A DNA stretch of 64,000 nt from positions 1-64,000 of the forward strand of contig WYBU01000012.1 of assembly GCA_011525745.1 (NCBI GenBank), read 5' to 3'. The notes beneath the pieces were generated by a model. It made no database searches. It was not told the DNA's origin and saw only the letters and a program-made list of their open reading frames with translations. Source of the stretch: Planctomycetaceae bacterium. GTDB lineage: Bacteria; Planctomycetota; Phycisphaerae; UBA1845; UTPLA1. Positions 2,023-50,430 of this stretch are shown here, in pieces. Position 1 is the stretch's first letter, and each line of letters opens with the position of its first letter. The translations under genes and the position numbers were made by a program.

Positions 2023-2772
2023 TCAATCGATGGCCTTATCTTCGTTTTCCCCGCCACATGGCGGTTCGACGTTTTTTCTCAGCCATCGTTCCACCTCCTG
2101 CGGCTTGAAACCGAACGGGCCGGGACCGCCCGCGTAGACGATGCGACCGTCGTCGCCGATGACGAACAGCCGCTCCGGCCAGCCGGCATAGGCCGTATCG
2201 ACCGCGTCGTCCAGCGTATCGACGACGCAGGTCATGCTCAGCTTCGTGGCCGAGCAGCATTTCTCGGCCAGTTCGCGACGCTCGTCCCACGTCGTCGGCT
2301 GGCGAAAAACCACGCCCTGCTCTTCGTTGACCGGCATCTGCCACTCGTCCGACGGATGCGCCTCGCGCACATAGACGAACAGGAACGCGACGCGGTCGCC
2401 CCAGCTTCGATACATCCGTTCGAGGGCGTCAGACTGACGCCGAAAGGGCGGTCAGGTGAAGCTGCCGAAGATCAGCACCAGCGGCCGATCTGGGTGGAAC
2501 TTCGAGCGCGTGATCGTCGTGCGGCCATCGCGCGTCGTCAGCGTGAAATCGGGCGCCGTCTCGCCGACGGTCGGCGCGCGGCGAGCCATGAGGCGCTTGA
2601 CCTCGGGCCAGTTGGCGGGCTGCCCCTCAGGCGGCTGGCGATCCGTGCGGGCGATAAACTCTTGCATCGGGTCCGGTGATTTTTTGGGGCCGCAGGATGC
2701 GCTGGCGATAAGCAGTGGGGCGAGTCCCATGATTAGCGCATGAAGCTGCCAAGAAGCGGACGGCTCGTTCAT
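2023..2772 (-). CDS. Iodothyronine-deiodinase-like selenoprotein, thioredoxin fold, exported lipoprotein
   Basis: A 249-residue product if the in-frame TGA (2454-2452, residue 107) is read as selenocysteine. The context GSFT-U-PPF, followed about 30 residues later by EAHPSDEW, matches the deiodinase active-site pattern. The N-terminus (MNEPSASW..., ATG at 2772) is a signal sequence ending near ASASCG, probably a lipoprotein; an APDFTL segment then opens the thioredoxin fold. Read conventionally, the gene falls into two meaningless halves, a 106-aa N-part and a 130-aa C-part starting at 2415. The SECIS-like hairpin at 2441-2425 supports recoding. The substrate is unknown; bacterial members need not act on thyroid hormones and may be thiol or peroxide redox enzymes. 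No selA, selB or selC lies in the window. Confidence 0.85.
2425..2441 (-). promoter_or_regulatory. Bacterial SECIS-like hairpin for selenocysteine insertion
   Basis: Ten bases after the UGA, the minus strand reads GGCGTCAGTCTGACGCC, a perfect 17-base hairpin with a 3- to 5-base loop containing GUC. Outer pairing is possible between CCG and TTC just after the UGA and GAA and CGG after the stem. Size, spacing and the loop resemble the E. coli fdhF SECIS from general knowledge, where about 11 bases separate the UGA from a 17-base hairpin with a GGUC loop. There is no bulged U in the upper stem as in E. coli, so SelB recognition may differ. Confidence 0.7.
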
Positions 2773-2993
2773 GGTTGGAAGTATAACGCGGAGCGGGAGG
2801 GGAACAGACAACGGGGAACAGGGAACGGGGGAAAGCGGCGAATCGGCGTCGCCAGTGCTGTCAAGAGGTGATCGAGTTTCGAACGGCGACATCAGACTTC
2901 GGGACCTCGCCGCGCGCCAGCGACGCCGTGGCGGAATCGGCCTGTTTTCTCGGCTCCCGCCGTATCCGGACGGCCGCTTGTTTTCGGGCGCGG

Positions 2994-2999
2994 TATAAT
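2994..2999 (+). promoter_or_regulatory. TATAAT -10 box before rpoN
   Basis: A perfect TATAAT lies here. Transcription from it would start near 3006, so the ATG at 2998 inside the box cannot be the start and the ATG at 3022 is favoured. No good -35 box is seen at normal spacing. Confidence 0.4.
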
Positions 3000-3021
3000 G
3001 GACAATAACGGCGGAAGAAGT

Positions 3022-4578
3022 ATGTCTCAGCACTTCTCGATGATCGCGACGCAGTCCATGCGGCTGGAGCAGCGGCTGACGCCGCAGCTCATTCAGTCGA
3101 TGGAGATCCTTCAGCTTCCGCTGATGGCGCTGGAGACGCGCATCCGCGAGGAGTTGGAGATCAACCCCGTTCTCGAGGACGCTTCGCTGCACGACGAACC
3201 GTCTGGTGCGACCGCCGCCGAAGACCAGCCCGCCGAACGGCCCGAAGCGGACACCTCGCGTGAGCAGGCCGAGAGCTTCGAACGGTTGGAGCGCCTGTCG
3301 CGCGAGTACGACTTCGATCCCGGCGACCTGCCATACGGCCGCGTGCGCAACAACGGCGAGCGCGACGCCAAGATGGACGCGATGGCCAACTCCGCCGCCC
3401 GCGGGCCGTCGTTGCAGGAACATCTCGAACGGCAATGGTCGCTGATGGAGCTGTCGCCGGAGGTCAAGCACGCCGGCCTGATCGTCATCGGCTGGATGGA
3501 CCCCGACGGCTATCTACGGACGAAGGCGGAGCATACGCTGGCCGAGAAGAACGCCGGCGACAGCGGGTCGATTCTGCCGCTGCTGATCCGGCGCGATGCG
3601 GCCGAGGCGGAGCGTCTGGACGACGAAATTGCGAAGTCCGTCCATCCGCCGATTGATCCGGGCGTGCTCGAAGAGGCCATCGCTCGGGTGCAGACGCTGG
3701 AGCCGAAAGGGGTGGGGGCGCGCGACCTGACGGAATGTCTGCTGATTCAGCTCGACGCGCTGCCCGAGAGTCACGAGCTGGCCGAGACGCTGGTCGAAAA
3801 TCACTTGCACGACATCGCCAAGAACCGCTTTCCGGTTATCGCGCGGGCGACCGGCCGGACGGTTGAGGAAATCAAGGAGGCGATGGCGATCATCTCGCGG
3901 CTGCATCATCACCCCGGTTCGGTGTTTTCGCCGGAAGAGGTGCCGCCGATCGTGCCGGACGTCATGGTTGATTACGCGGACGACGGCGACGGTTACACGG
4001 TCCGCCTGACGCGCGGCAACAGTCCATCGCTGCGCATTTCGCCGCAGTACCGTCACATGCTGACGGCCCGCGAGGCCGATGCGACGGCGCTGGCGTTTCT
4101 GAGAAAAAACCTCGAATCGGCCAAGTCGCTGATCGACGCGATTCACTTCCGCCGCGACCGGATGCTGGAAATCTCGCGCGTCATCGTCGAGCGGCAGCGC
4201 GAATTCCTGGATTTCGGGCCGCAGTTCCTCAAGATTTTGCGGATGCGCGATCTGGCCGAGGAGCTGGGCTGCGATCCTTCGACGATCAGCCGCACGGTCG
4301 ATGGCAAGTACATGCAGACGCCGCGCGGCATTTATCCGATGCGGATGTTCTTCACAGGCGGCACCGAGACGCAGGACGGCGACGCGATCAGTTGGGACGC
4401 GATCAAGATGAAGGTCAAGGAGATCATCGAGCGCGAGGACAAGGCCGATCCGCTGTCCGACGACGCCATCGCCAAACAGCTCAGCGAGCAGGGCAACGTC
4501 ACCATCTCGCGCCGCACCGTGGCCAAGTACCGCGCCCAACTCATGATCCCGCCGGCCCGCGAACGCAAGCAGTTCTGA
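3022..4578 (+). CDS. rpoN: RNA polymerase sigma-54 factor RpoN
   Basis: Directs RNA polymerase to -24/-12 promoters that need AAA+ activators. Region I (about residues 1-50) is the glutamine/leucine-rich activator-interacting segment, with RLTPQLIQSMEILQLP clearly visible. An acidic region II follows, then the core-binding domain, a helix-turn-helix (LAEELGCDPSTISRTV) and the RpoN box RRTVAKYR near residues 497-504. The 518-residue length is normal for the family. The start at 3022 is chosen over 2998 because a TATAAT box covers 2994-2999 and a GGAAG ribosome site precedes 3022. The gene stands alone, with divergent and intergenic neighbours. Confidence 0.95.
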   Translation: MSQHFSMIATQSMRLEQRLTPQLIQSMEILQLPLMALETRIREELEINPVLEDASLHDEPSGATAAEDQPAERPEADTSREQAESFERLERLSREYDFDPGDLPYGRVRNNGERDAKMDAMANSAARGPSLQEHLERQWSLMELSPEVKHAGLIVIGWMDPDGYLRTKAEHTLAEKNAGDSGSILPLLIRRDAAEAERLDDEIAKSVHPPIDPGVLEEAIARVQTLEPKGVGARDLTECLLIQLDALPESHELAETLVENHLHDIAKNRFPVIARATGRTVEEIKEAMAIISRLHHHPGSVFSPEEVPPIVPDVMVDYADDGDGYTVRLTRGNSPSLRISPQYRHMLTAREADATALAFLRKNLESAKSLIDAIHFRRDRMLEISRVIVERQREFLDFGPQFLKILRMRDLAEELGCDPSTISRTVDGKYMQTPRGIYPMRMFFTGGTETQDGDAISWDAIKMKVKEIIEREDKADPLSDDAIAKQLSEQGNVTISRRTVAKYRAQLMIPPARERKQF

Positions 4579-5155
4579 TTCACGACGAACAATAGCATAT
4601 TTACGCGGTCCTGTCGAAGCCCCCGCGCGCCACCATCGCCGAAAGGGATGAACATGAATAGCCGCGGGTGAGACCCACGGTATCAGACGCGTTTTATCCA
4701 TTGGAACCCTGAAGGGGTTCCACAATGCACCACCTGTGCGCGTGACGTTAGGCACTCTCGCGCCTCGCCCCGGCCGCAGCACGAAGTTGTCCGGCCCTTT
4801 CAGGCCGGCATCTATAAAGGGGGGACGCCCTCCGTGGGTTGCGTCCACGGCCATTCACGTTGATCCCCTTCGGGGAGGAACGACCTGGGGACGTGTGTGC
4901 GATTCAGCGGCACATTGTGACGGCGCCGCCTGCTTCGATGACGGTGGCTTCCATGAATACCAAGGGCGGATTTGTTCGCGCCCCGCGACGAATTCCCAGC
5001 AACGTGCCGCACCAGTCAGGTCACATCATCAACGTGCATACGATTGTGCCACGCCGCCTTTCTTCCGTTCGTCGCTCCGTCGCTTTCTCCTGCCGCTTTG
5101 TGCCCACGTGCCTTCTTCATGGCTTGACCGCGCCGCCCGTTCGGAACGGCCATCC
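4579..5155. other. Intergenic region with short palindromes, no supported gene
   Basis: No frame here resembles a protein. The stretch carries imperfect palindromes such as GGAACCCTGAAGGGGTTCC near 4702-4720 and GATCCCCTTCGGGGAGG near 4862, of a type seen between genes elsewhere in this genome. Frames at 4736-5197 and 4839-5330 run over these and into the antisense of the next gene. Confidence 0.6.
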
Positions 5156-6655
5156 TCATTCCACGCCAACGCCCAGTTCGAGAAGGGCATCGCGTAAGTT
5201 TTCCATCTGCACGACTCGCGGCAGATCGCCGGCCGCGGTCATGGCGAAGCCCGTCGAACTCACGGCGCTGAGGCTGCCGTGCGCCGCCGCCAGGGCCACC
5301 ATGCGATCCATTAATGCGCTGCCGAAGTGATACCCTTCGGCGGAACACACGAGCACGTCGGGCTGGTGCACGACCAAACCGTGAAACGCGCGCCACAGCC
5401 GGTGCAGCGGATCGGGATAAATATGATCCGCTGTAACCGTAAACCACGTTTCATCGGCGGCGCAGCCCGCCGCGTCGCCAGCGCCGTGTTTCCGCAATTC
5501 GTCCAGCAGGGGAAGCAGGCCCAGCGGGTCTCCGTATTCGCAGCGATAGCAGTAGGCGTCACCCGATTTCGTAATCGCCGCCAAACCGTCGCGGGAACGG
5601 ACCACGACGCGATCTTGCTCGTCGAGCCACGCCGCCAGCGTTACGCCGTCGATGCCCACCACGTCGCGCGCCACTCCCGCCGGTTGTTGCGTGTGAATGG
5701 CCGCGTAGGTCACGATGCCGAACTCGGGCACGACGATGTCGCCCGGCCGTTCCAACCGCGTCGAGACGCGGTAGCCGAACCGCGAAAGCAGATCGGCCAG
5801 CGGAATGCGCCTGCTGCGCACCAGATTGTGACCGTGGTCGGAGAACATCGACACGCGCACGCGGCCGCGCGTGTCATACAACATCTGCTGGCAGACGCGA
5901 TCGACGCGGATCAGGCCGGCCTGATGTCCGTTGCGGCCCTCGTTGGCGCCGAGCGACGAAGGCCCGACGCAATAGCCGATGAACGCGCGCTGCGCTGCGG
6001 CATCGCCGTTTGCAGCCTGCTGCACGCGCTGTGTCATGCGGTCTTGAATGACGCGCAGCTCATGATCGAACCAGGGATGCGGATCGAGGTACGCGCGCGT
6101 GTGCGCGATCGTCCACATGCGGTAATCGACGCGTGGGACCCAGGGCATGTCGACGTCGCCGGCGTACTTCCAGTAGCCCGACGTCAGCCGGCTGCCGTCG
6201 TAGTACCGCGACTCCAGCCCCGGACACGGCGACACGCCGAAGAATTCCGCCAGCGACACGTCGGTCATCACCGGAAACGGACTGATCACGCGCGTCGGCG
6301 GCCGGCAGTAACGAAAGCGGCCGGCCTGCCACAGGTCGTGCACCATGCGGTAGGGAATGCTGTCGAGGATGAGCACCAGGTCGCGTCGCTGGTCCGACGC
6401 GATTTCCGCCAGATGCACGATGGTTCCGCCGCCGCCGTCGGCGTCGGTGTCATAGTGCAGCGACTCGACAAGGCCCTCGCGGGAGAGCTGCTCGCCGAAG
6501 TCGGCGCGGCCGTCGCCGTTGACGTCGTAGAGGCGCAGCGCGCCGCCGTTTTGAAGCGCCCGTTCGGCCAACGGCGCGACCGGAAACAGCCGCGGTCCGG
6601 GGCCGGCGCATCCGGCGAACGAAAGGCATGCCGCGAGAACTCCGATTCGCGTCAT
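5156..6655 (-). CDS. Alkaline-phosphatase-superfamily lipoprotein with EF-hand-like loop
   Basis: A 499-residue exported protein with a short lipoprotein signal (LSFAGCAG). Residues about 42-55 contain YDVNGDGRADFGE, a calcium-binding dockerin/EF-hand-like loop. Superfamily signatures follow: the metal aspartate in ILDSIPY, a nucleophile threonine in FPVMTDVSLAEFF, and the metal pair in SDHGH. It is a predicted metal-dependent phosphodiesterase/phosphatase acting outside the cytoplasm; the substrate is unknown. The ATG overlaps the stop of the upstream gene (ATGA at 6652-6655), so the two are translationally coupled and probably form one unit. Confidence 0.75.
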   Translation of the reverse strand: MTRIGVLAACLSFAGCAGPGPRLFPVAPLAERALQNGGALRLYDVNGDGRADFGEQLSREGLVESLHYDTDADGGGGTIVHLAEIASDQRRDLVLILDSIPYRMVHDLWQAGRFRYCRPPTRVISPFPVMTDVSLAEFFGVSPCPGLESRYYDGSRLTSGYWKYAGDVDMPWVPRVDYRMWTIAHTRAYLDPHPWFDHELRVIQDRMTQRVQQAANGDAAAQRAFIGYCVGPSSLGANEGRNGHQAGLIRVDRVCQQMLYDTRGRVRVSMFSDHGHNLVRSRRIPLADLLSRFGYRVSTRLERPGDIVVPEFGIVTYAAIHTQQPAGVARDVVGIDGVTLAAWLDEQDRVVVRSRDGLAAITKSGDAYCYRCEYGDPLGLLPLLDELRKHGAGDAAGCAADETWFTVTADHIYPDPLHRLWRAFHGLVVHQPDVLVCSAEGYHFGSALMDRMVALAAAHGSLSAVSSTGFAMTAAGDLPRVVQMENLRDALLELGVGVE

Positions 6656-8304
6656 GATGGCGATTGCACTCCAGCGGCTTGATCTTCGCCCGCGCGCAGG
6701 ATTTCCGCCCGAAGGCTGACGCCGTCGATGACGCCGTTTCGTTCGAGGCGGTGAAGCTCGCCGAGAAAGTCCAGGATCGTCGGCATCACGTCGACCAGGC
6801 GCGCAAACGGCAGCGTCGCGCCGCGCGGAACGTCCGGACCGGCGAAGTAGAGCGGGATGTGCATGTCCGCACTCAGGCAGGAACCGTGTCCGCTGATGTC
6901 CGAGGCGTCGAATGACCAGTCATCGGCCGCGAACACCACGACGTCGCCGGTGCGCGTCGAATCGAACATCTCGACGGCCTGGGGCACGAAATCGGGATGG
7001 TTTGACGCGGCGCTGGCGGCAAGCCACGTCCGTGATGCGTGCCAGTCGTCGTCCAGCAGCGCCGAAATCGCCGGATTTTCGCGAAATCCCAGCGGATTTC
7101 CGCACAGCTCCGCCACGCGATAAAAGGCGTCGCCGCCCTGGTGGCGTCCCTCAAGCACCGCCGACCCGCCGCGCGCATTAAGCCGGACACGCGCCGGGCC
7201 ATCGCGCGTCAGGACCGCTTCGACAGCCGGTTCGTCAACCAGGCGCGGCGCCGCTTCGGCCAGCCGGCGCGACTCCTCCGGCCCGACAGGGTATGACCAT
7301 CCGCGGCGCCCGCGCAGGTGAATCATGGCGCTGCGAAACGCCCCGGTAATCAGCGCGGCATCGTAAGAATCGAGCCGGTTCAGCAATGCCACGTACGATT
7401 CGTCGATTCGCAGTTCGCGGCGACGGTCGCGGATCGTGTAGGAGCGCAGGCCGTGTTTGCTCGTGAGCCATCGCGCCAGGTCGAAGCGTCGTCCGTGGCC
7501 GGTCGCCACGTGACCGTGATCGGTCACGAGCACCAGGTAAATGCGATCCGATAGCTTTAGTGCATCCAGCACGCCGGCGATGCGCCCGATCTGGCGGTCG
7601 AGATTGCGAATGGCCTCTTCGTACGCGGGCGAAGCCGAGCCGTGCACGTGGCCGGTCTGGTCGATGCCGGGGAAGTACGTCAGCACGACGCGCGGCCAGC
7701 GGCGCACGCCCTCGGCCAGCGGAATCAGATCGACAAAGCGCTTGCCGACGCGTTCGTCGACTTCGCGGTACCGACCGAAAAACCAGTCAATGCCGCTTTC
7801 GACCATGCGGTCGAACGTGTAGACGGCCCCGCGCCGCGTGTGACTCTGGATGCTGACGGTGAAGTCGTCGGCGAGAATCTCGAACAGCGTCGCGGCGCGA
7901 AAGTCCTCGTTGACGGCGCGATAGGTGGCCGCCGAGCTGTAGTCCTGAAAACGCAACGTGCGACGATCGAACCACTGATTGCCGACGATCCCGTGATGGC
8001 CCGGATGCACGCCCGTAAGCAGGGAAACGGCGTTGGGATATGTGATCGGCGGCAGCGAAGCGATCGCGTGCTCGACGCGCAGGCCGCCCTCGATAAAGCG
8101 CTTCTGAACATGAGGCAGCTCACCCCGCGCGAGCAGTTCGTCGAGCCGCCGCGCGTCGAGTCCGTCGGCGAAAAAGATCAGCGCGCCGCTGGCCGGTCGC
8201 TCGACGTCATCCGTCAGCGTGGGCCGAAGTTCATGCGGGGCCGCGCAGCCGCCGGCTAATCCGATGAAGAGCAGCAGGTGTGGATTTCCGCGCCGGACGC
8301 GCAT
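6652..8304 (-). CDS. Type I phosphodiesterase / nucleotide pyrophosphatase family lipoprotein
   Basis: A 550-residue exported protein with lipobox LAGGCA near residue 20. It shows the nucleotide pyrophosphatase/phosphodiesterase signatures: the metal aspartate in FFADGLD, the nucleophile threonine in PPITYPNAVSLLTG, GIDQTGHVHG, and VTDHGH for the second metal site. It likely hydrolyses phosphodiester or pyrophosphate bonds of extracytoplasmic substrates. It is the first gene of a two-gene unit; its TGA overlaps the next ATG. The pair looks like ancient paralogues with different N-terminal additions. Confidence 0.8.
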   Translation of the reverse strand: MRVRRGNPHLLLFIGLAGGCAAPHELRPTLTDDVERPASGALIFFADGLDARRLDELLARGELPHVQKRFIEGGLRVEHAIASLPPITYPNAVSLLTGVHPGHHGIVGNQWFDRRTLRFQDYSSAATYRAVNEDFRAATLFEILADDFTVSIQSHTRRGAVYTFDRMVESGIDWFFGRYREVDERVGKRFVDLIPLAEGVRRWPRVVLTYFPGIDQTGHVHGSASPAYEEAIRNLDRQIGRIAGVLDALKLSDRIYLVLVTDHGHVATGHGRRFDLARWLTSKHGLRSYTIRDRRRELRIDESYVALLNRLDSYDAALITGAFRSAMIHLRGRRGWSYPVGPEESRRLAEAAPRLVDEPAVEAVLTRDGPARVRLNARGGSAVLEGRHQGGDAFYRVAELCGNPLGFRENPAISALLDDDWHASRTWLAASAASNHPDFVPQAVEMFDSTRTGDVVVFAADDWSFDASDISGHGSCLSADMHIPLYFAGPDVPRGATLPFARLVDVMPTILDFLGELHRLERNGVIDGVSLRAEILRAGEDQAAGVQSPS

Positions 8305-8327
8305 GGGTGTGACACTCTCGTGCGGTC

Positions 8328-8359
8328 AAAAAAAAGCCCCCTGGACGCTGCCAGGGGGC
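8328..8359 (-). terminator. Rho-independent terminator after tRNA-Glu
   Basis: A perfect 9-bp stem (GCCCCCTGG with CCAGGGGGC, 8336-8359) is followed on the minus strand by a run of eight T (8335-8328). It lies just downstream of the tRNA. Confidence 0.8.
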
Positions 8360-8371
8360 CTTTCGATCAAA

Positions 8372-8444
8372 TACCCCCACGGGGACTCGAACCCCGGTCT
8401 TCAGGATGAGAACCTGATATCCTGGGCCGCTAGACGATGGGGGC
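8372..8444 (-). tRNA. tRNA-Glu (anticodon CTC)
   Basis: The minus strand folds as a 73-base cloverleaf. Acceptor GCCCCCA pairs with TGGGGGT plus an A discriminator. The D arm is CGTCTAGCGGCCC-like, the anticodon loop is TTCTCAT with CTC, and the T arm is CCGGGGTTCGAGTCCCCG. CCA is not encoded. Confidence 0.95.
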
Positions 8445-8835
8445 CGGATATCCCGCGCCCGGCATCGCCGGTCACGGAAGACTCAAGAGGGACGCCCATT
8501 TTCTAGCGGCGGTCCGTGATGGAATCAAGTCCCGGCGAAAGCCGTCAGCAATCGGCGATGAGCGTTCAACCATCGGCTTTCAGCCGTCGCCGGATGCCCT
8601 GGAAGTCGGGGTGACTTGATCTAACAGGATTTTTTTTTCAAGGAGTCCGCTCCTGTGGGCCGGAAACGCGGGTACTGCTGGCCGTGAAATTGGTGACTGG
8701 GCGCCTGTTGAACTTCATGCCACCCGGCGTGGGCCTCTGGACGCCGGAAAGCGGCAAATCGCTGCCCCTTGACAGGCAAGCCCAGACTTGCCTATACTGC
8801 GAGCGTTTGATGAGTCACGAAGGCATGCTTGATTC
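8445..8835. other. Intergenic region, no supported gene
   Basis: A non-coding stretch between divergent genes. It contains a short degenerate repeat around CATCGGCTTTCAGCCG (8571-8587), also seen near 40185. A weak promoter for the ArsR gene may lie around 8769-8800 (TTGACA at 8769, TATACT at 8791). Confidence 0.5.
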
Positions 8836-9111
8836 ATGGACGACATTTGCCACGCCATCGCCGACGCGACAAGGCGAGCGATACTGGACGAGTTGGTGCA
8901 GCGCGACGGGCAGACGCTCTTTGAACTCTGCGGGCGCTTGACCATGAAACACGGCATCAGTTCGTCTCGGCAAGCGATCTCGCAGCACTTGGACGTCTTG
9001 GAGTCGGCCGGGTTGGTCATTGCGAGGCGAGAAGGTCGGTACAAGTTCCATTGGTTCAACGGCGAGCCTCTGAAGGCAATCACCCAGCGATGGCCCACGA
9101 AAGGACGCTGA
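8836..9111 (+). CDS. ArsR-family winged-helix transcriptional regulator
   Basis: A 91-residue protein. It opens with the typical DATRRAILDELVQRDGQTLFEL segment of ArsR regulators, followed by a recognition helix region (SSSRQAISQHLDVLESAGLV) and a wing (ARREGRYKFHWFN). No metal-binding cysteine pair is seen, so it belongs to the subgroup that pairs with stress or SRPBCC/VOC genes rather than to metal sensors. It is followed after 6 bases by a VOC protein and probably controls that operon. A TTGACA (8769)/TATACT (8791) promoter with a 16-base spacer lies about 40 bases upstream. Confidence 0.85.
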   Translation: MDDICHAIADATRRAILDELVQRDGQTLFELCGRLTMKHGISSSRQAISQHLDVLESAGLVIARREGRYKFHWFNGEPLKAITQRWPTKGR

Positions 9112-9117
9112 AGCTCG

Positions 9118-9516
9118 ATGAAAATCAATTTGTCCAGCGTGCTCGTCGACGACCAGGAGAAGGCTCTGCGGTTCTATACCGAAGCGCTCGGCTTCCAGAA
9201 GAAGCACGACATACCCCTGGGCCCATATCGCTGGTTGACCGTCGTATCCCCCGAGGATCCGGACGGCACCGAACTCGTCCTTGAACCCGACGAGCATCCA
9301 GCCGTCAAACCGTTCAAAGCCGCGCTCGTCGAAGATGGCATTCCCTTCACGTCATTTGCGGTGACGGACGTCGCGGCCGAGCACAAACGGCTCGAAGCGC
9401 TCGGCGTGCGATTCACGCAGCCGCCCACCGACTTCGGTACAGTGATCACGGCGGTCTTCGACGACACGTGCGGCAACCTCATCCAGATTGCACAGGAGAT
9501 TCGGAAGCCATGTTGA
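9118..9516 (+). CDS. VOC-family (glyoxalase/bleomycin resistance-like) protein
   Basis: A 132-residue single-domain protein with two beta-alpha-beta-beta-beta halves. It starts with VLVDDQEKALRFYTEALGF, a canonical VOC opening, and ends with FDDTCGNLIQIAQ, carrying the metal-ligand region near the C-terminus. It is likely a metal-dependent lyase, isomerase or binding protein; the substrate is unknown. It lies 6 bases after the ArsR gene and 20 bases before the next start. Confidence 0.85.
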   Translation: MKINLSSVLVDDQEKALRFYTEALGFQKKHDIPLGPYRWLTVVSPEDPDGTELVLEPDEHPAVKPFKAALVEDGIPFTSFAVTDVAAEHKRLEALGVRFTQPPTDFGTVITAVFDDTCGNLIQIAQEIRKPC

Positions 9517-9536
9517 CGTTCATCAGGGAGAAAGCC

Positions 9537-10118
9537 ATGAACAAACGCGCAATCCTCTGCGTCTGCATCGCGATCGCGCTGGTCGGCGGGATCAGCGGTG
9601 TGATTGCCCAGTCGTCCGCCCCGGGAACTACGTCCGCGCCCGCCGCGCCCCCGAGAGATCATGAATGGCTCAAGCGACTCGTGGGTGAATGGGACGTGCA
9701 GTTCAAGATGTACATGCAGCCGGATCAACCGCCCGTGGAGTCGACCGGCACCGATTCCGTTCGCACGCTTGGCGAGCACTGGATCATCGCTGAAACCAAA
9801 ACCACGATGATGGGCGCTTCCTATCACGGCGTTCTCTCGCTGGGTTACAACGCGCTGAAGAAGCAGTTCAATGGCACATGGATCGATTCCTTCGGCGGGC
9901 AACTGTGGGTGTACAAGGGCACGCTCAACGACGCCGGCGACACGATGACGCTCGAAACCGAAGGTCCGAGCCTCACGCAAGGCCCCGACAAGACCGCGCG
10001 GTACAAGGAAGTCCACCAGATCAAGAGTAAGGACAGCCGCACGTTCACGTCGTCCATGGAAAAGGAAGACGGTACGTGGATGAAGATTGTCACGATCGAA
10101 TACCGGCGGAAGAAGTGA
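9537..10118 (+). CDS. DUF1579 family exported protein
   Basis: A 193-residue protein with a signal peptide (MNKRAILCVCIAIALVGG, cut near VIAQS). The mature part has HEWLKRLVGEWDV, TTMMGASYHG and GYNALKKQFNGTWID, matching DUF1579, a lipocalin-like beta-barrel family of unknown ligand. The ATG at 9537, preceded by GGGAGAAAG, is chosen over an in-frame upstream start at 9468 that overlaps the VOC gene. DUF1579 genes often sit beside VOC and ArsR genes, as here. Confidence 0.8.
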   Translation: MNKRAILCVCIAIALVGGISGVIAQSSAPGTTSAPAAPPRDHEWLKRLVGEWDVQFKMYMQPDQPPVESTGTDSVRTLGEHWIIAETKTTMMGASYHGVLSLGYNALKKQFNGTWIDSFGGQLWVYKGTLNDAGDTMTLETEGPSLTQGPDKTARYKEVHQIKSKDSRTFTSSMEKEDGTWMKIVTIEYRRKK

Positions 10119-42824: not shown

Positions 42825-42866
42825 CAAGACAGTGTACCACGACCGGGCGTGTCCACGCCGGTTATC

Positions 42867-42932
42867 GGAGAGGGGGGGATTCGAACCCCCGGTACAGGTT
42901 TAAGCCCGTACAACGGTTTAGCAAACCGTCGC
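42867..42932 (-). other. attL: displaced 3' half of tRNA-Ser
   Basis: It matches the right-end tRNA-Ser in the acceptor/T region (42867-42890, identical to 50251-50274) and in the 21-bp core (42912-42932, identical to 50296-50316), but differs in the variable arm between them. The 5' half is missing, so it is not a functional tRNA. This is the original chromosomal 3' end pushed away by integration. Confidence 0.9.
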
Positions 42933-43237
42933 ACGATTCCACAAGCACAGATAAGACAAGCACTTGCAAGAGTGAGGATACGGACCCCCGCAGTAGTCTA
43001 CGCAGTAGTGGGGAATCTCAAGGGGGTTTCGTAGTGGACTCCGCCGTTTTACTCAATCTAGAACATACGTATCTAGATATCCTGAGAGAGTCTTACCCTG
43101 ACCTGTCGGTTCTGGTAGAGCTATGGCCCTCTCTACCTGACGGGGTAAGGCAGGCTATTACGACCCTGGCCCGCGCTTCAATTTCTACTTCCCGGCGTGG
43201 CTATGGATACGAAACCTCAAAAAATCCCGAGAAATAG
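42932..43237 (+). CDS. Detached C-terminal segment of the integrase (joined in the excised circle)
   Basis: An in-frame continuation of the integrase reading frame after the attachment core: 101 codons from the core to TAG. Its last 67 codons, from GTG 43034, can form a small stand-alone protein (VDSAVLLNLEHTYLDILRES..., WPSLPDGVRQAITTLARA). The frame phase at both core copies is the same. Similar ends (an acidic helix then WPxLPxxVRxxI) are recalled from planctomycete integrases. In the integrated state this piece has no clear start of its own except GTG 43034. Confidence 0.65.
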   Translation, partial: HDSTSTDKTSTCKSEDTDPRSSLRSSGESQGGFVVDSAVLLNLEHTYLDILRESYPDLSVLVELWPSLPDGVRQAITTLARASISTSRRGYGYETSKNPEK

Positions 43238-43252
43238 GGGGGTTTCGTATCC
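43205..43252. repeat. Attachment-flanking 48-bp palindromic repeat, left copy
   Basis: GGATACGAAACC at one end and its inverse GGTTTCGTATCC at the other, with TCCCGAGAAA inside. The right copy is at 49950-49997 in the same orientation. In the excised circle the two would lie about 270 and 300 bp on either side of the core. Confidence 0.8.
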
Positions 43253-43384
43253 AGGGGGGTGTGAAAATGGGGGGTTTGAGGGATGACGCGGGGGTGACTG
43301 ACCCGCCGGCCGGCGGCGGGGACTTTGTTAACGCTACCAAACCGGCCGCGTGGTGCGGCTGGCGAACTTTTGAAAGGAAGCGAC

Positions 43385-44584: not shown

Positions 44585-45004
44585 ATGGGATTGCGAGGAC
44601 CTCCGCCGCTGCCCGCGTGGCTGAAAGCTGACCGAAGCGGCAGGCGACCGCGCCCGGCGTGCAGATTCGCGCCCGGCCGACCGGACCCGCCGGCGGAAGT
44701 TACGGACGACGCCGACGCGCTGGCGGCGTGGCAAGATGCGGCGGATGAACTTGAGCAACGCGGCGACCTAACGCTGGCCGACCGCGCTGTGTTGAGCGTG
44801 TACGCGCTTACGTGGGGGCGGCTGATTCGCGCAGTACGTCACGTGCGCGAGCACGGGGAGCGAACGCACGAGGGGAAGATTGCAAGCGAACTGACGCGAC
44901 AATTGCGGACGTTTTCTCTAGCATTAGGACTGACGCCCGCCGGGCGGTTGCGGCTCGGCAACGCGGCCCCGGTCGATGAAGTGCCGTCGTTTCTGACGCG
45001 CTGA
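44585..45004 (+). CDS. Phage terminase small subunit, P27 family
   Basis: A 139-residue protein fitting the P27 small terminase pattern: MGLRGPPPLP start, then AAWQDAADELEQRGDLTLADRAVLSVYALTWGRLI, and a final helical RQLRTFSLALGLTPAGRLRL. Small terminase binds the packaging site and directs the large ATPase/nuclease. No large subunit is present, so in a satellite the protein would redirect a helper phage's terminase. It is the last gene before a terminator. Confidence 0.75.
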   Translation: MGLRGPPPLPAWLKADRSGRRPRPACRFAPGRPDPPAEVTDDADALAAWQDAADELEQRGDLTLADRAVLSVYALTWGRLIRAVRHVREHGERTHEGKIASELTRQLRTFSLALGLTPAGRLRLGNAAPVDEVPSFLTR

Positions 45005-45901: not shown

Positions 45902-46069
45902 ATGGAAACCATCAAAATTCCTCCACTTAGCGAGATTGAAGCCGCAATCCGCAATCGGCGGCGGGAACTCGCCGAGTTACGCGCGCTGCTCCGTGTTGCG
46001 CAGGTGCGTGAGCTTACAACCCCAAAGCAAACCAAACGCGGCAGGAAGGCGGTGGCCGATGCGCGCTGA
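45902..46069 (+). CDS. Small element protein, 55 residues
   Basis: A small basic helical protein (IPPLSEIEAAIRNRRRELAELRALL, then a K/R-rich end). An AATACT -10-like box and a TTGAAG -35-like hexamer (18-base spacer) lie upstream, with the ATG 6 bases after the box, again suggesting a leaderless transcript. It overlaps the next start by 11 bases. Confidence 0.55.
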   Translation: METIKIPPLSEIEAAIRNRRRELAELRALLRVAQVRELTTPKQTKRGRKAVADAR

Positions 46070-46298
46070 AGCCCCCGCCCCGCCCCGACCGCCCGCGACG
46101 CCCGCCGGCGGCCCGGTGACGCTAGCCCTGAATGCCCCGGACGCGGCGGCGGCTCTGGGTATTTCAACCCGGCTGCTGTGGAGCATGACAAACCAAAATC
46201 GGATACCGCACGTCCGAATTGGGCGTCGGGTGATTTACCCCACCGCCGAGCTTCAAAAGTGGCTGAATGAGCAAATCTCGAAAGGGGGGCGGCGGTGA
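46059..46298 (+). CDS. AlpA/excisionase-like helix-turn-helix protein
   Basis: A 79-residue MerR-type HTH: DAAAALGISTRLLWSMTNQNRIPHVRIGRRVIYPTAELQKWLNE is the classic pattern of AlpA/excisionase-type proteins. These control excision and integrase expression in P4-like and PICI-like elements. It overlaps both neighbours (11 bases before; GTGA at its end with the next gene). Confidence 0.8.
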   Translation: MRAEAPAPPRPPATPAGGPVTLALNAPDAAAALGISTRLLWSMTNQNRIPHVRIGRRVIYPTAELQKWLNEQISKGGRR

Positions 46299-46921
46299 AC
46301 CCCCGATATAAAAAAAGCCCGCCCCGCGTCGTCAGCGCGGGAACGGGCGAAACTCAAGGCGGCCGATTCAACAGCGCGGAATTATACCCCCCGGAATCCC
46401 TGGAAGCAATCGAACTCGACGCCGTACGTGCGACGGCCGAAGCGTTGGCCGACGAACGGGCGGTGCTCGGCAAGCTTTGGAGCGACCCCGGCCCGGCGTT
46501 CGACCTGGCCCTCTCTGTTGGCCTGAACAGGGCGGCGTATTTCTCGCTTCCCGAGCACGCGGCGTTGTTCCGTATGCTCTGCTGGCACGTGGTCAACGCC
46601 GGCGGCGCTGATCCCGAGCCGGCTGACCCGGCGATTCTTCGCGTGGCGTTGGCCGACCTGCGAATTGAACTGACCCCCAGCAACTTGAATGCGATTCTTG
46701 GCGCCGGCTGCGGCTACGTCGGCGCTGATGAAATCGCCCGGCGAATTACCGAAGAACACTACCCCCGCCGCGTCCGCGTGGCCCGGCTGTGGCGGCTGTT
46801 ACGCGACCAAATGCGGCCAGCGAGCAAACCGAAACACGCCCCCGCGTCGAGCGGGGGGCCGACGAAACGCCCCGTCTTTTCCTGGCGTGCGATTCGCGGA
46901 ATGAAGGGCGGTGCGGCATGA
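46295..46921 (+). CDS. DnaB N-terminal-domain-like element protein
   Basis: A 208-residue protein. The first 30 residues (from GTG 46295, coupled to the previous stop) span an A-run/hairpin and may be only weakly coding. The central part (ERAVLGKLWSDPGPAFDLALSVGL, then YFSLPEHAALFRMLC) resembles the DnaB helicase N-terminal domain. No helicase domain follows in this gene; the next one carries an ATPase. The stop overlaps the next ATG (ATGA). Confidence 0.6.
   Translation: MNPRYKKSPPRVVSAGTGETQGGRFNSAELYPPESLEAIELDAVRATAEALADERAVLGKLWSDPGPAFDLALSVGLNRAAYFSLPEHAALFRMLCWHVVNAGGADPEPADPAILRVALADLRIELTPSNLNAILGAGCGYVGADEIARRITEEHYPRRVRVARLWRLLRDQMRPASKPKHAPASSGGPTKRPVFSWRAIRGMKGGAA
46310..46348 (-). 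terminator. Minus-strand terminator-like hairpin inside the element
   Basis: GCCCG and CCGCG arms (46317-46328) pair with CGCGG and CGGGC (46336-46348), and seven T follow on the minus strand. It lies at the beginning of the DnaB-N-like gene, where no minus-strand gene is annotated. Confidence 0.4.
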
Positions 46922-48429
46922 CCACTTACAAGCTCTTTCCCCTCGACGCCCTGCCCGAGCCTATGCGGCAAATGGTGCAGGAAACCGCCGTGGCAACCTC
47001 AACCGACCCGGCGTATGCGGCCCTGGCGTGTCTCGTAACGGCCACAAGTTGTATCGGGAATCGCGTCGCGGCCGTTGTCCGTGACGGCTGGATGGAGGCT
47101 GCGGTTTTGTGGGGTTGCCTTGTCGGCCGAAGCGGCACAATGAAAAGCCCGGTGTTGCGGCTCGTTGCAAGGGGTGCTGTCGAACTCTACAAGCAAAACC
47201 GCACCGAGTATCAATCTCGCCTGGCTGAGCACGCGTCGGCGGTGCAGCGCTACGCCGTTGAACTCGCTGAATGGAAGCGGCAACAGAGGGGCAAGGGCGC
47301 GCCGGTGACGGACCCGCCGGTTGAACCCGAAGCCCCTCGGGAAAAGCGCCTTTTGGTATCCGATGTTACGGTTGAAAAGTTGGGTGCGCTGCTGGAAGCG
47401 AATCCTCTCGGCTTACTGATTGTGCGCGACGAAGTGGCGGCGTTGCTCGGCTCGTTTGACAGATACGCGAACGGCCGCGGCGACATGCCCGCGTACCTGT
47501 CGTTCCACGACGCACACTCCGTCGTTATCGACCGCAAGAACGAAGCGGGAACGTTGTTCGTTGAACGGGCGGCGGTAAGCATTCTCGGCGGCGTTCAACC
47601 GGCCGTCTTACGTCGCGTTTTCGGCGAGCGGGAACGCGAGAGCGGACTTCTGGCGCGGTTTCTCCTTGTGAACCCGCCTGAAAGGCCCCAGCGCTGGAGC
47701 GACGCGGGGCTGTCGGATGACGCGGCGTATTGCTGGCGCGAACTGCTGGCGGCCCTACAAGGCATTCCGTCGGCGATCGACGATAACGGCTACGTCAGAC
47801 CGCACTTTATCCCTCTCGGCGACGAAGCAAAGGCCCTGTTTATTCCCTGGCTTAATGCCCATTCCGACGAACTCGCGGAACTCGCCGATGACGATTTACG
47901 AGCGCACTACAGCAAGCAGAAGGGCGGCTGTGTCCGCCTGGCGCTGCTGTTTGAATGCATCATGGCCGAAGGCGCAATCCGTTTCGTCGGCGCTGACGCC
48001 ATGCGGCGGGCAATCATACTGACGGAGTGGTACAAGCATGAGGCGGCCAGAATCTACGGCACGCTGCGGGATGACGCGGAGCAAACGCGAATCCGAAGCA
48101 TGTTGGAATGGATCGGGCGGCGCGGCGGAAGCGTGACGCCCACGGAGCTGGCGCGGTGCGGCCCCCGAGAATTTCGGGGCGACGCTGACATGGCGGAGCA
48201 AGCGCTTTCCCTACTGGTGAAAGCCGGATTCGGCCGGTGGGAAAACGTCGGCCACGGGCCCGACGGCGGGCGGCCGACGCTGCGATTCCTGCTAAGCCCA
48301 ACAGGCGGCGAGCACGCGGGTGGGAACGGGCGGGACATGGAACCCCCGGCGGCCGACGCCGACGGCCCGCCGCTGCCGGAACCCGACTTCAACCCCGACG
48401 AACATGAAGAAATTCCATTGCCTTATTGA
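46918..48429 (+). CDS. DUF3987-type primase/helicase-like ATPase
   Basis: A 503-residue protein in the DUF3987 group found in phages, satellites and integrative elements, thought to act in replication initiation. A P-loop-like stretch is GRSGTMKSPVLR and a Walker B-like stretch LLIVRDEVAALLG. The C-terminal region (EWIGRRGGSVTPTELARCGPREF, then winged-helix-like sequence) probably binds DNA. The P-loop lacks the usual second glycine before K (M in its place), as noted in some relatives. A promoter for the next module overlaps its last codons. Confidence 0.75.
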   Translation: MTTYKLFPLDALPEPMRQMVQETAVATSTDPAYAALACLVTATSCIGNRVAAVVRDGWMEAAVLWGCLVGRSGTMKSPVLRLVARGAVELYKQNRTEYQSRLAEHASAVQRYAVELAEWKRQQRGKGAPVTDPPVEPEAPREKRLLVSDVTVEKLGALLEANPLGLLIVRDEVAALLGSFDRYANGRGDMPAYLSFHDAHSVVIDRKNEAGTLFVERAAVSILGGVQPAVLRRVFGERERESGLLARFLLVNPPERPQRWSDAGLSDDAAYCWRELLAALQGIPSAIDDNGYVRPHFIPLGDEAKALFIPWLNAHSDELAELADDDLRAHYSKQKGGCVRLALLFECIMAEGAIRFVGADAMRRAIILTEWYKHEAARIYGTLRDDAEQTRIRSMLEWIGRRGGSVTPTELARCGPREFRGDADMAEQALSLLVKAGFGRWENVGHGPDGGRPTLRFLLSPTGGEHAGGNGRDMEPPAADADGPPLPEPDFNPDEHEEIPLPY

Positions 48430-48459: not shown

Positions 48460-48675
48460 ATGGATATCGTTCAACAAATACTGAAGCTGGCGCGTGCCCG
48501 CGGAATCAGCATCTATCGCCTGGCCAAAGATGCGGATTTGGGCGTGGCGGCCGTACAGCGCATGGTGAAGGGCGGCGGGGCGAAAGTTTCGACGGCTGAA
48601 AAGCTGGCCCGCGTGGTCGGCTGCCGGCTCGTGCTGCAACCCACCAAGAGAAAACAAAAGGCGGTGCAATCGTGA
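48460..48675 (+). CDS. XRE-like helix-turn-helix regulator of the element
   Basis: A 71-residue HTH protein: ISIYRLAKDADLGVAAVQRMVKGGGAKVSTAEKLARVVG is a compact XRE-like domain. It is cotranscribed with the integrase; its TGA overlaps the integrase GTG. It likely autorepresses via the inverted repeat in its own promoter. The start ATG 48460 is set by the promoter position. Confidence 0.8.
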   Translation: MDIVQQILKLARARGISIYRLAKDADLGVAAVQRMVKGGGAKVSTAEKLARVVGCRLVLQPTKRKQKAVQS

Positions 48676-50321
48676 AACAGCGCTCGCACGGGTCCGGCTC
48701 GTTATTCAAGCGCACCGAAAGCGGCTGCTGGATTGCGGCCTGGTATCTGCACGACGGAAGGCGACGGGAGAAAAGCACCGGCACGACCGATCGGGCGGCG
48801 GCGGCCCGGATTCTCGCCAAGCACGTGGCGGACGCGGCGCTGAGGCGCGACGGCGTGATCGACGCGAGGACCGACGGCTACGCCGAAGCGAATCGAAAAC
48901 CGCTGGCGGAGCACGTCAAAGAATGGAAGGCGTCGCTGACGGCCAAGGGCGTCACGTCGCAGCAGGTGAATCTTGTAACGAACCGCGTGACCTGGCTGCT
49001 GAACACCTGCAACGCGGAACGAATCGCGGACCTCTCGGCATCAGCCGTGCAGGCGGCCCTGGGCGAATTGAAGGGCAAGGGGCGGAGTCTCCAAAGCCTG
49101 CAACATTATCTGAGAGCAATCAAGCAATTCTCAAAGTGGCTGCGGCAGAATGGGCGGGTGCGCGAAGACGCCCTGGCGTTTCTCCAGGGCTACCGAGCGG
49201 ACGCGGACCGCCGATACGAGCGGCGGCCGTTCAACCCCGACGAACTCGCCCGCCTGATCCGGGCGGCCGAAGACGGCGAGCCTTGGCGTGACCTGATCGG
49301 ACGTGACCGGGCAATGCTCTACCGCGTCGCTACAGGGACCGGATTCCGTGCGTCTGAACTGCGGAGCCTGACCCCAACGGCGTTCCGGCTGGACGGCGAT
49401 TCCCCCTGCGTCATGCTTACCGCACGGGCGAGCAAACGCAGGACTGCCGACGTACAGCCCATTCGTCGCGACCTGGCCGACGTGGTGGGCGCGTGGCTGG
49501 CGGGCAAGCCCGCGGACGAACCGCTGTGGCCCGGCGCGTGGCACAAGCGAGCGGCCGAAATGCTGCGGGCCGACCTCGACAAAGCCCGTCAAACGTGGCT
49601 GCACGAAGCGGCAACGCCGCGGGAACGAACGCGACGGGAAGGGACGGACTTCCTGTCGGCCGAAAACGAGCAAGGGCTTGTGGCGGACTTTCACAGCCTC
49701 AGAGCGACGTTCATTACGCTTATCGTCAAGGGCGGCGTGAGCGTGAAGGTGGCGCAGGAACTCGCCCGCCATTCCGACCCCCGGCTCACGCTGAACACCT
49801 ACACAAGGCTGGGAATCCATGACCTCGACGCTGCGCTCGACGTGCTGCCCCCGCTGTCACGCGACGCGCAGGCTACGCCGCTGAGAGCGACGGGCACGGC
49901 CGGCGGCCCGCCCGATAAGCTGGCAATCGTTACAAACCGGCCCCCCCCTGGATACGAAACCCCCTCAATTCCCGAGAAAAACAGGGGTTTCGTATCCATA
50001 GCCACTACGAAGAATGAAAAAACGCACGGACCCCGAGAGGATCGGGAAGGAACTACAGAGCGGGGTACAGAGAGGGGTATACCACAAAAGGCGTCTACGC
50101 ACTTGTCTACGCAGTTGCTGAGCGAAGCGGTGCGACGTAGTGCGTCGTATGTCACAGATACCGAATCCTGTGAAGGTTCAGGTGGGATATCTGATACCCC
50201 TATGAATCAAGGGGTATTGCGAGACAATGCGACACAATACGACGTAATACGGAGAGGGGGGGATTCGAACCCCCGTAGCAGGTTGAAGCCCGCTAAACGG
50301 TTTAGCAAACCGTCGCTTTAA
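48672..50321 (+). CDS. Tyrosine-type site-specific integrase
   Basis: Inserts and excises the element at tRNA-Ser. The arm-binding domain (residues about 70-170) precedes the catalytic domain with R226 (GTGFRASEL), H341-x-x-R344 (FHSLRATF), H367 and Y377 (ARHSDPRLTLNTYTRLG). The catalytic part ends near residue 395; 150 more residues run through attachment arm repeats and antisense of the tRNA (RGGDSNPRSRLKPAKRFSKPSL), stopping at TAA in the tRNA. In the circular form the frame continues for another 101 residues (see 42932-43237). The length, 549, thus exceeds the usual 350-420. The start is GTG 48672, coupled to the regulator. Confidence 0.92.
   Translation: MKQRSHGSGSLFKRTESGCWIAAWYLHDGRRREKSTGTTDRAAAARILAKHVADAALRRDGVIDARTDGYAEANRKPLAEHVKEWKASLTAKGVTSQQVNLVTNRVTWLLNTCNAERIADLSASAVQAALGELKGKGRSLQSLQHYLRAIKQFSKWLRQNGRVREDALAFLQGYRADADRRYERRPFNPDELARLIRAAEDGEPWRDLIGRDRAMLYRVATGTGFRASELRSLTPTAFRLDGDSPCVMLTARASKRRTADVQPIRRDLADVVGAWLAGKPADEPLWPGAWHKRAAEMLRADLDKARQTWLHEAATPRERTRREGTDFLSAENEQGLVADFHSLRATFITLIVKGGVSVKVAQELARHSDPRLTLNTYTRLGIHDLDAALDVLPPLSRDAQATPLRATGTAGGPPDKLAIVTNRPPPGYETPSIPEKNRGFVSIATTKNEKTHGPREDREGTTERGTERGIPQKASTHLSTQLLSEAVRRSASYVTDTESCEGSGGISDTPMNQGVLRDNATQYDVIRRGGDSNPRSRLKPAKRFSKPSL
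49950..49997. repeat. Attachment-flanking 48-bp palindromic repeat, right copy
   Basis: The direct partner of 43205-43252, with the same GGATACGAAACC/GGTTTCGTATCC ends and TCCCGAGAAA core. Nearby are TCTACGCA-type repeats at 50094-50103 and 50106-50115, with a third at 42997-43006 on the left side. These are candidate integrase arm sites. Confidence 0.7.
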
Positions 50322-50340
50322 GCCACTCAGCCACCTCTCC
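50250..50340 (-). tRNA. tRNA-Ser (anticodon GCT), reconstituted at attR
   Basis: A 91-base class II tRNA. Acceptor GGAGAGG pairs with CCTCTCC plus a G discriminator; the anticodon loop is TTGCTAA in an ACGGT/ACCGT stem; a long variable arm follows. The 5' half is chromosomal; the 3' half beyond the 21-bp core (50296-50316) is supplied by the element, with a changed variable arm. The integrase frame ends inside it on the opposite strand. Confidence 0.95.
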
Positions 50341-50430
50341 AGCGTGGCGACCCGCGCCGTTGGCGACGCGGGTCGCGGACGATCAGAATATAGCACCGAT
50401 TTCGGCGCGCGAAAGTCAATTCTCGCCCGA

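Follow-up and report, generated by a model that had tools for sequence, protein, structure and literature searches.

An attP site buried in the integrase gene of a satellite-like planctomycete element, and a conserved C-terminal tail that integration would exchange

The element described here carries its attachment site, attP, within the 3′ part of its own integrase gene. The preferred reading, to which a probability of roughly 0.75 is given, is that the circular form encodes an integrase with a C-terminal tail and that loss of this tail stabilises the integrated state; the second, switch-like part is an inference. What can be read from the DNA is a continuous frame, a conserved tail under selection, an arrangement that recurs in related elements and an uncut gene in homologous phages, and the regulatory switch is inferred, with the Mx8 precedent and the selection on the tail behind it, and not shown.

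The window (the whole stretch of 64,000 nucleotides that was analysed) contains an element of ~7.4 kb bounded by two identical 21-bp cores, at 42912-42932 and 50296-50316 (both + strand), whose sequence, AACGGTTTAGCAAACCGTCGC, occurs just twice in the window. An intact tRNA-Ser(GCT), found by ARAGORN on the - strand (50249-50341), is the rebuilt target on the attR side, and the right core falls within its anticodon arm. On the attL side is the displaced 3′ half of the target tRNA-Ser (42866-42932, - strand); it is 90% identical to 50250-50316 over 67 nt, and the cores form the end of this duplication. The genes between, all on the + strand, include those for a small terminase subunit (TerS; 44585-45004; PF05119, 1.1e-11; phrog_83, 3e-18), an excisionase-like HTH_17 protein (45936-46298; PF12728; phrog_66), a DUF3987 or helicase-like replication protein (46789-48429; PF13148, 1.3e-67; phrog_2373) and a Cro/CI-like regulator (48463-48675; PF13443). 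The element has no TerL, capsid or other structural genes, and in its integrase, regulators, replication gene and TerS it is like the PICI-like satellites. On this predicted gene content it may be called phage-satellite-like; no helper phage was identified. No empty attB was found among the family genomes, where the M16 peptidase gene that neighbours the tRNA in the window is present in 7 relatives and never adjoins tRNA-Ser. The same genome holds a second element of this design with a different core (L040, G000:C128, about 2241-9835).

The integrase gene in its resident form (48672-50321, + strand) begins at a GTG, runs for 549 codons and stops inside the tRNA one codon beyond the core. Its product has a PF00589 domain (2.2e-12) and the catalytic residues R226, K255, H341, R344, H367 and Y377, which are invariant or nearly so among 12 homologues; with the R-K-H-x-x-R-H-Y residues and the domain both present, the predicted protein qualifies as a tyrosine recombinase of the lambda-Int type. 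A fold search groups the enzyme with lambda Int, Brujita Int, Tn1549 Int and the Xer recombinases, and the resident ORF retains the N-terminal and complete catalytic domains. At the far end of the element lies a displaced C-terminal segment of the integrase, 101 codons and a stop (42932-43237, + strand), whose first codon begins at the last base of the core. Both core copies share the same codon phase, and the gene joined at the core is open for 649 codons followed by a stop; 548 complete codons are common to the two forms, which means that integration exchanges 101 tail residues for 1. An earlier note had claimed that the integrase frame passes through the right core to a stop in the tRNA, and that the left core, in the same phase, leads into 101 further codons to give an uninterrupted gene of 649; joining the two copies confirmed both statements, with the coordinates and counts correct as given. 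Over the joined attP, a length of 239 codons, the int frame contains 0 stops as compared with 4, 10, 11, 13 and 14 in the other five frames, and the chance of a stop-free int frame of that length at the local composition is about 2.5e-5.

It is clear from homologues that an uncut gene exists. The phage genome L200 (IMGVR_UViG_3300025162_000083, IMG/VR) is a contig of 43,208 bp that can be considered circular because its ends overlap by 127 bp, and in it a single ORF of 574 codons encodes the catalytic domain, the antisense-tRNA peptide ARTRNLRFRR and the tail. This gene is flanked on its two sides by phage helicase and terminase genes, and one copy of the core is present in the parts of the genome that were read (about 27 kb). 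The linker-core-tail junction of L200 recurs in L335, which comes from another sample and is identical over 9.9 kb. Uncut genes are also present in L352 (533 codons), a 49-kb phage contig with terminase and helicase genes whose ends do not overlap, and in L308 (645 codons), a MAG contig. The uncut form was thus seen in homologues, not in excised DNA of the window element. In the plasmid and isolated-phage collections relatives of the window integrase were absent, and the phage form gave only weak matches to its catalytic domain; viral scans with L308 and with the integrase of the G012 prophage yielded no relatives. The open join in the window and the uncut gene of the circular phage bear out the earlier proposal that attP lies inside int. 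Since attP is inside int and the tail is reached through the tRNA, the proposed swap of the tail upon integration also follows. The same note had stated that planctomycete integrases often end in a tail of the WPxLPxxVRxxI type, some by reading through an antisense tRNA; related integrases do reach such a tail through a tRNA, mostly in the antisense direction and in a few cases in the sense direction. An attP with a broken frame, or a lack of homologues with the tail attached to an integrase, would have refuted the proposal; the attP frames are continuous and such homologues are found.

The surroundings of the core were analysed for repeats at 32 loci. Direct repeats across the core numbered 113, compared to 16.9 in shuffles, and inverted repeats 20, compared to 14.2 expected; the repeats flanking the core typically lie at about -190 to -110 and +40 to +90. 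In the window, GTCTACGCA has only three occurrences within the element, at -203, -191 and +84, giving by repeat match two putative arm-type sites on the P side (50093-50113, + strand) and one on the P′ side (42996-43004, + strand). These repeats look like arm-type integrase sites; an attP with P and P′ arm-type sites around its core is therefore met on sequence alone, without any binding having been shown. Because the arm-type repeats flank the core within the int frame, the whole of attP would be coding, and the linker between the catalytic domain and the tail would therefore be attP read as protein. An inverted-repeat pair is also present, nearly symmetric about the core at about -350 and +290, with one member on the P side (49949-49998) and the other on the P′ side across the stop codon of the tail (43204-43253), neither being assigned a strand. 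The copies, TGGATACGAAACC...GGTTTCGTATCCA, overlap coding sequence.

The same arrangement is found in related elements. Displaced tails were paired with integrases by their direct repeat, phase not being required, and only those pairs were counted in which there was a core repeat and the integrase ORF was usable. Tail and integrase are in phase in 35 of the 36 resolvable elements, where 1/3 would be expected (binomial tail 5e-16); this value overstates independence, since the phases must agree wherever a tRNA has only one open frame. The 35 consist of 28 distinct loci, L142 and six prophage-sized pairs that are 30-60 kb across; duplicates (L247/L122, L256/L102 and L272/L273/L274) were counted once among the 28, and the joins of this 28-locus set contain no stop. 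In the out-of-phase exception, L144/L185, the linker is frameshifted; the integrase of L140 is decayed, and in L266 int and tail are adjacent but frameshifted. These copies are possibly grounded, or they may be assembly errors. In L306 and L320 int and tail are on the same strand with no core repeat detected between them. L044 and L123 also gave core matches but were left out, as the distal copy has no adjoining integrase, and an out-of-phase 21-nt repeat in L248 was counted neither way; it is not the tRNA core, and the contig begins within the true core. The cores derive from several tRNAs, which are mostly antisense to int, and the same tail is reached by sense-direction read-through of the tRNA in L141, L288 and L211. 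Furthermore, the tail is common to at least two integrase subfamilies. The fact that it is shared across subfamilies and several tRNAs indicates that the tail is the constant part of the arrangement and the tRNA the variable part.

The tail is a genuine protein module, as yet without a name. In the window it is defined by profile matches as a conserved helical module (43031-43234, + strand), with the motif match inside it (43058-43180, + strand), and it is modelled as a helical unit with a pLDDT of 92-97 at its centre. The consensus is DPDLAAVVxAWPxLPEAxRAGIVAMVRA. A 41-residue piece has matches, mostly weak, in 15 of 17 family genomes; a profile of 12 sequences reaches E<=0.1 in 91 of the 114 genomes from the order, with many matches at 1e-10 to 1e-20; and a related profile has matches in 24 of 119 genomes across the phylum at E<=1e-3. 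Several of the loci lie on contigs of Phycisphaerae and of other Planctomycetota, which puts the window in that phylum. Almost every match falls in a short ORF that, upstream of the motif and in the same frame, encodes a peptide of antisense-tRNA type, such as GFEPxTxGL, GIRTHDPR or DSNPQ. The dN/dS of the tail is mostly 0.2-0.6, and pN is below pS in 99.5% of 196 related pairs (the pairs are non-independent); by these estimates the tails are under purifying selection. The tail alignment, A2, has a few letter errors and served only as a search profile, by which the tails of L200, L308, L352, L335, the paired loci and the phylum-wide sample were found; the identity and selection figures for tails were taken from the DNA itself. 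In the AlphaFold2 model of the L200 phage homologue a folded integrase is followed by a disordered linker (424-534) and a two-helix tail with pLDDT about 87-90. The tail has no match in Pfam or NCBIfam, and a profile search of the PDB gave short spurious matches only and no convincing relative. The motif also ends two Ser/Thr-kinase-like proteins of related genomes (L051, a 425-aa ORF, and L147, a 538-aa ORF); the module is therefore not confined to integrases.

Based on this, the circular element would encode an integrase of 649 residues in which a long, flexible linker joins the N-terminal and catalytic domains to a helical tail at the C-terminus; this linker would be translated from the P arm, the tRNA core and the P′ arm. 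The tailed integrase, inferred to be the form that belongs to the element while it infects or is circular, would insert the element at tRNA-Ser with the crossover in the anticodon arm; integration would then shift the tail 7.4 kb to the far end and leave a resident enzyme of 549 residues that terminates one codon beyond the core. It is inferred that the tail boosts or directs attP x attB recombination and that its loss lowers or redirects activity, which would stabilise the integrated state. Excision would restore the tailed gene, and may use the resident enzyme together with the excisionase-like HTH protein (phrog_66).

An attP inside int was described for Mx8 in 1996 (Tojo 1996; Magrini 1999, via PMC6070905 and PMC4701971). 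In Mx8, too, attP lies within a tyrosine integrase gene and integration swaps a C-terminus of ~100 residues for a short one; a tail of 112 residues is reported to be replaced by 13, with the resident form less active (PMC4701971), and the resident enzyme is also reported as retargeted and retaining activity (PMC6070905, PMC4701971). The replacement of the C-terminus of int by integration, as in Mx8, is met by the window join and by L200. Mx8 Int also has the same order of parts, a catalytic domain, a tRNA-like peptide (STGLEPV) and a tail, yet the tails are unrelated, the tail profile having no significant match in Mx8 Int (best domain -4.4 bits). Unlike that of Mx8, the tail of the window type is a conserved module that occurs across a phylum and on several integrase subfamilies, in satellites as well as phages, with sense or antisense tRNAs. 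It is because of Mx8, and of the selection on a part that is made with the enzyme only when the element is circular, that the resident enzyme is taken to be weaker or differently directed. The principle is already known from Mx8; what seems to be new is the family of tails, with its breadth and modularity.

Other systems show a more limited likeness. In the archaeal SSV-type suicidal integrases attP is also inside int and the gene is altered by integration, but there the gene is split into two inactive parts; in the window the catalytic part is not severed from the remainder of the protein, and int keeps the whole catalytic domain and exchanges only its tail. A review calls self-disrupting recombinases exclusively archaeal (PMC8371274), att sites within the integrase gene are stated to occur in very few elements (PMC4701971), and the Islander authors leave room for integrases of the Mx8 and SSV types that reach across attP. 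Streptococcal ICEs in rumA likewise have attR within the integrase gene; they differ in having serine integrases and a protein-coding target, with no such shared tail described. In integration-dependent immunity the integration state is read by cutting a gene at attP, which is located in the repressor gene. Such immunity is mentioned for some actinobacteriophages (PMC4929511). In the window, too, integration cuts a gene at attP; this gene is not a repressor gene, for the cores are in int and beside the tail and the Cro/CI-like gene is elsewhere, at 48463-48675. The open-access literature, which leaves most subscription journals outside, yielded no paper describing such integrases in planctomycetes.

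It is possible that attP lies in int merely for compactness, the tail being just the C-terminus required for full activity and its loss having no regulatory role. No functional data speak to this, and the element's own excisionase-like gene could alone set the direction of recombination. However, ordinary integrases keep attP outside the gene, the buried attP and the same tail are kept in 35 elements with different integrase subfamilies and tRNA targets, and the Mx8 swap does change function; this explanation is unlikely, without being one that can be set aside. Alternatively, tail loss may inactivate the resident enzyme for good, so that excision needs an intact integrase in trans. The frameshifts or decayed integrases of some copies (L140, L144/L185) and the precedent of the archaeal suicidal integrases lend this some weight, but it is made doubtful by the intact catalytic domain of the resident gene, unlike the split archaeal genes, and by the activity that the Mx8 resident form retains. 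That the tail is translated alone at the left end of the integrated element and acts in trans is very improbable, although a GTG at about 43034 follows AAGGGGG and could conceivably start a free peptide of about 67 residues; starts preceded by a ribosome-binding site were found before 7 of 89 tails in frame as against 6 and 5 in the other two frames, and in the absence of any excess, and with the tail fused to int in the uncut phage genes, this reading was rejected. Antisense tRNA frames are often open and are commonly annotated as ORFs, but an accidental open frame through attP can scarcely be entertained for the 101-codon extension and was rejected, given the order-wide conservation of the tail, its purifying selection, the absence of stops in 239 codons and the confident helical model.

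Self-altering integrases, which have been taken as rare, are represented here by a large class in bacteria whose tail is defined and conserved. Both halves of the swap survive in every integrated copy, and with two natural protein forms to compare, it becomes directly testable by what means an integrase promotes insertion while free but stays quiescent once resident. For annotation, the resident integrases in such genomes are systematically truncated, and many short ORFs by tRNAs with GFEPxT- or DSNPR-like peptides are the missing integrase ends. A broader proposition, for and against which the case is evenly balanced, is that the tail serves as a transferable module dedicated to the integration state. 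Phages and satellites across the phylum would keep it beyond an attP buried in int, and integration would thereby disarm or re-aim the recombinase, whatever its subfamily or tRNA. If true, directionality would have a built-in component that is widespread and was previously seen only in isolated cases such as Mx8.
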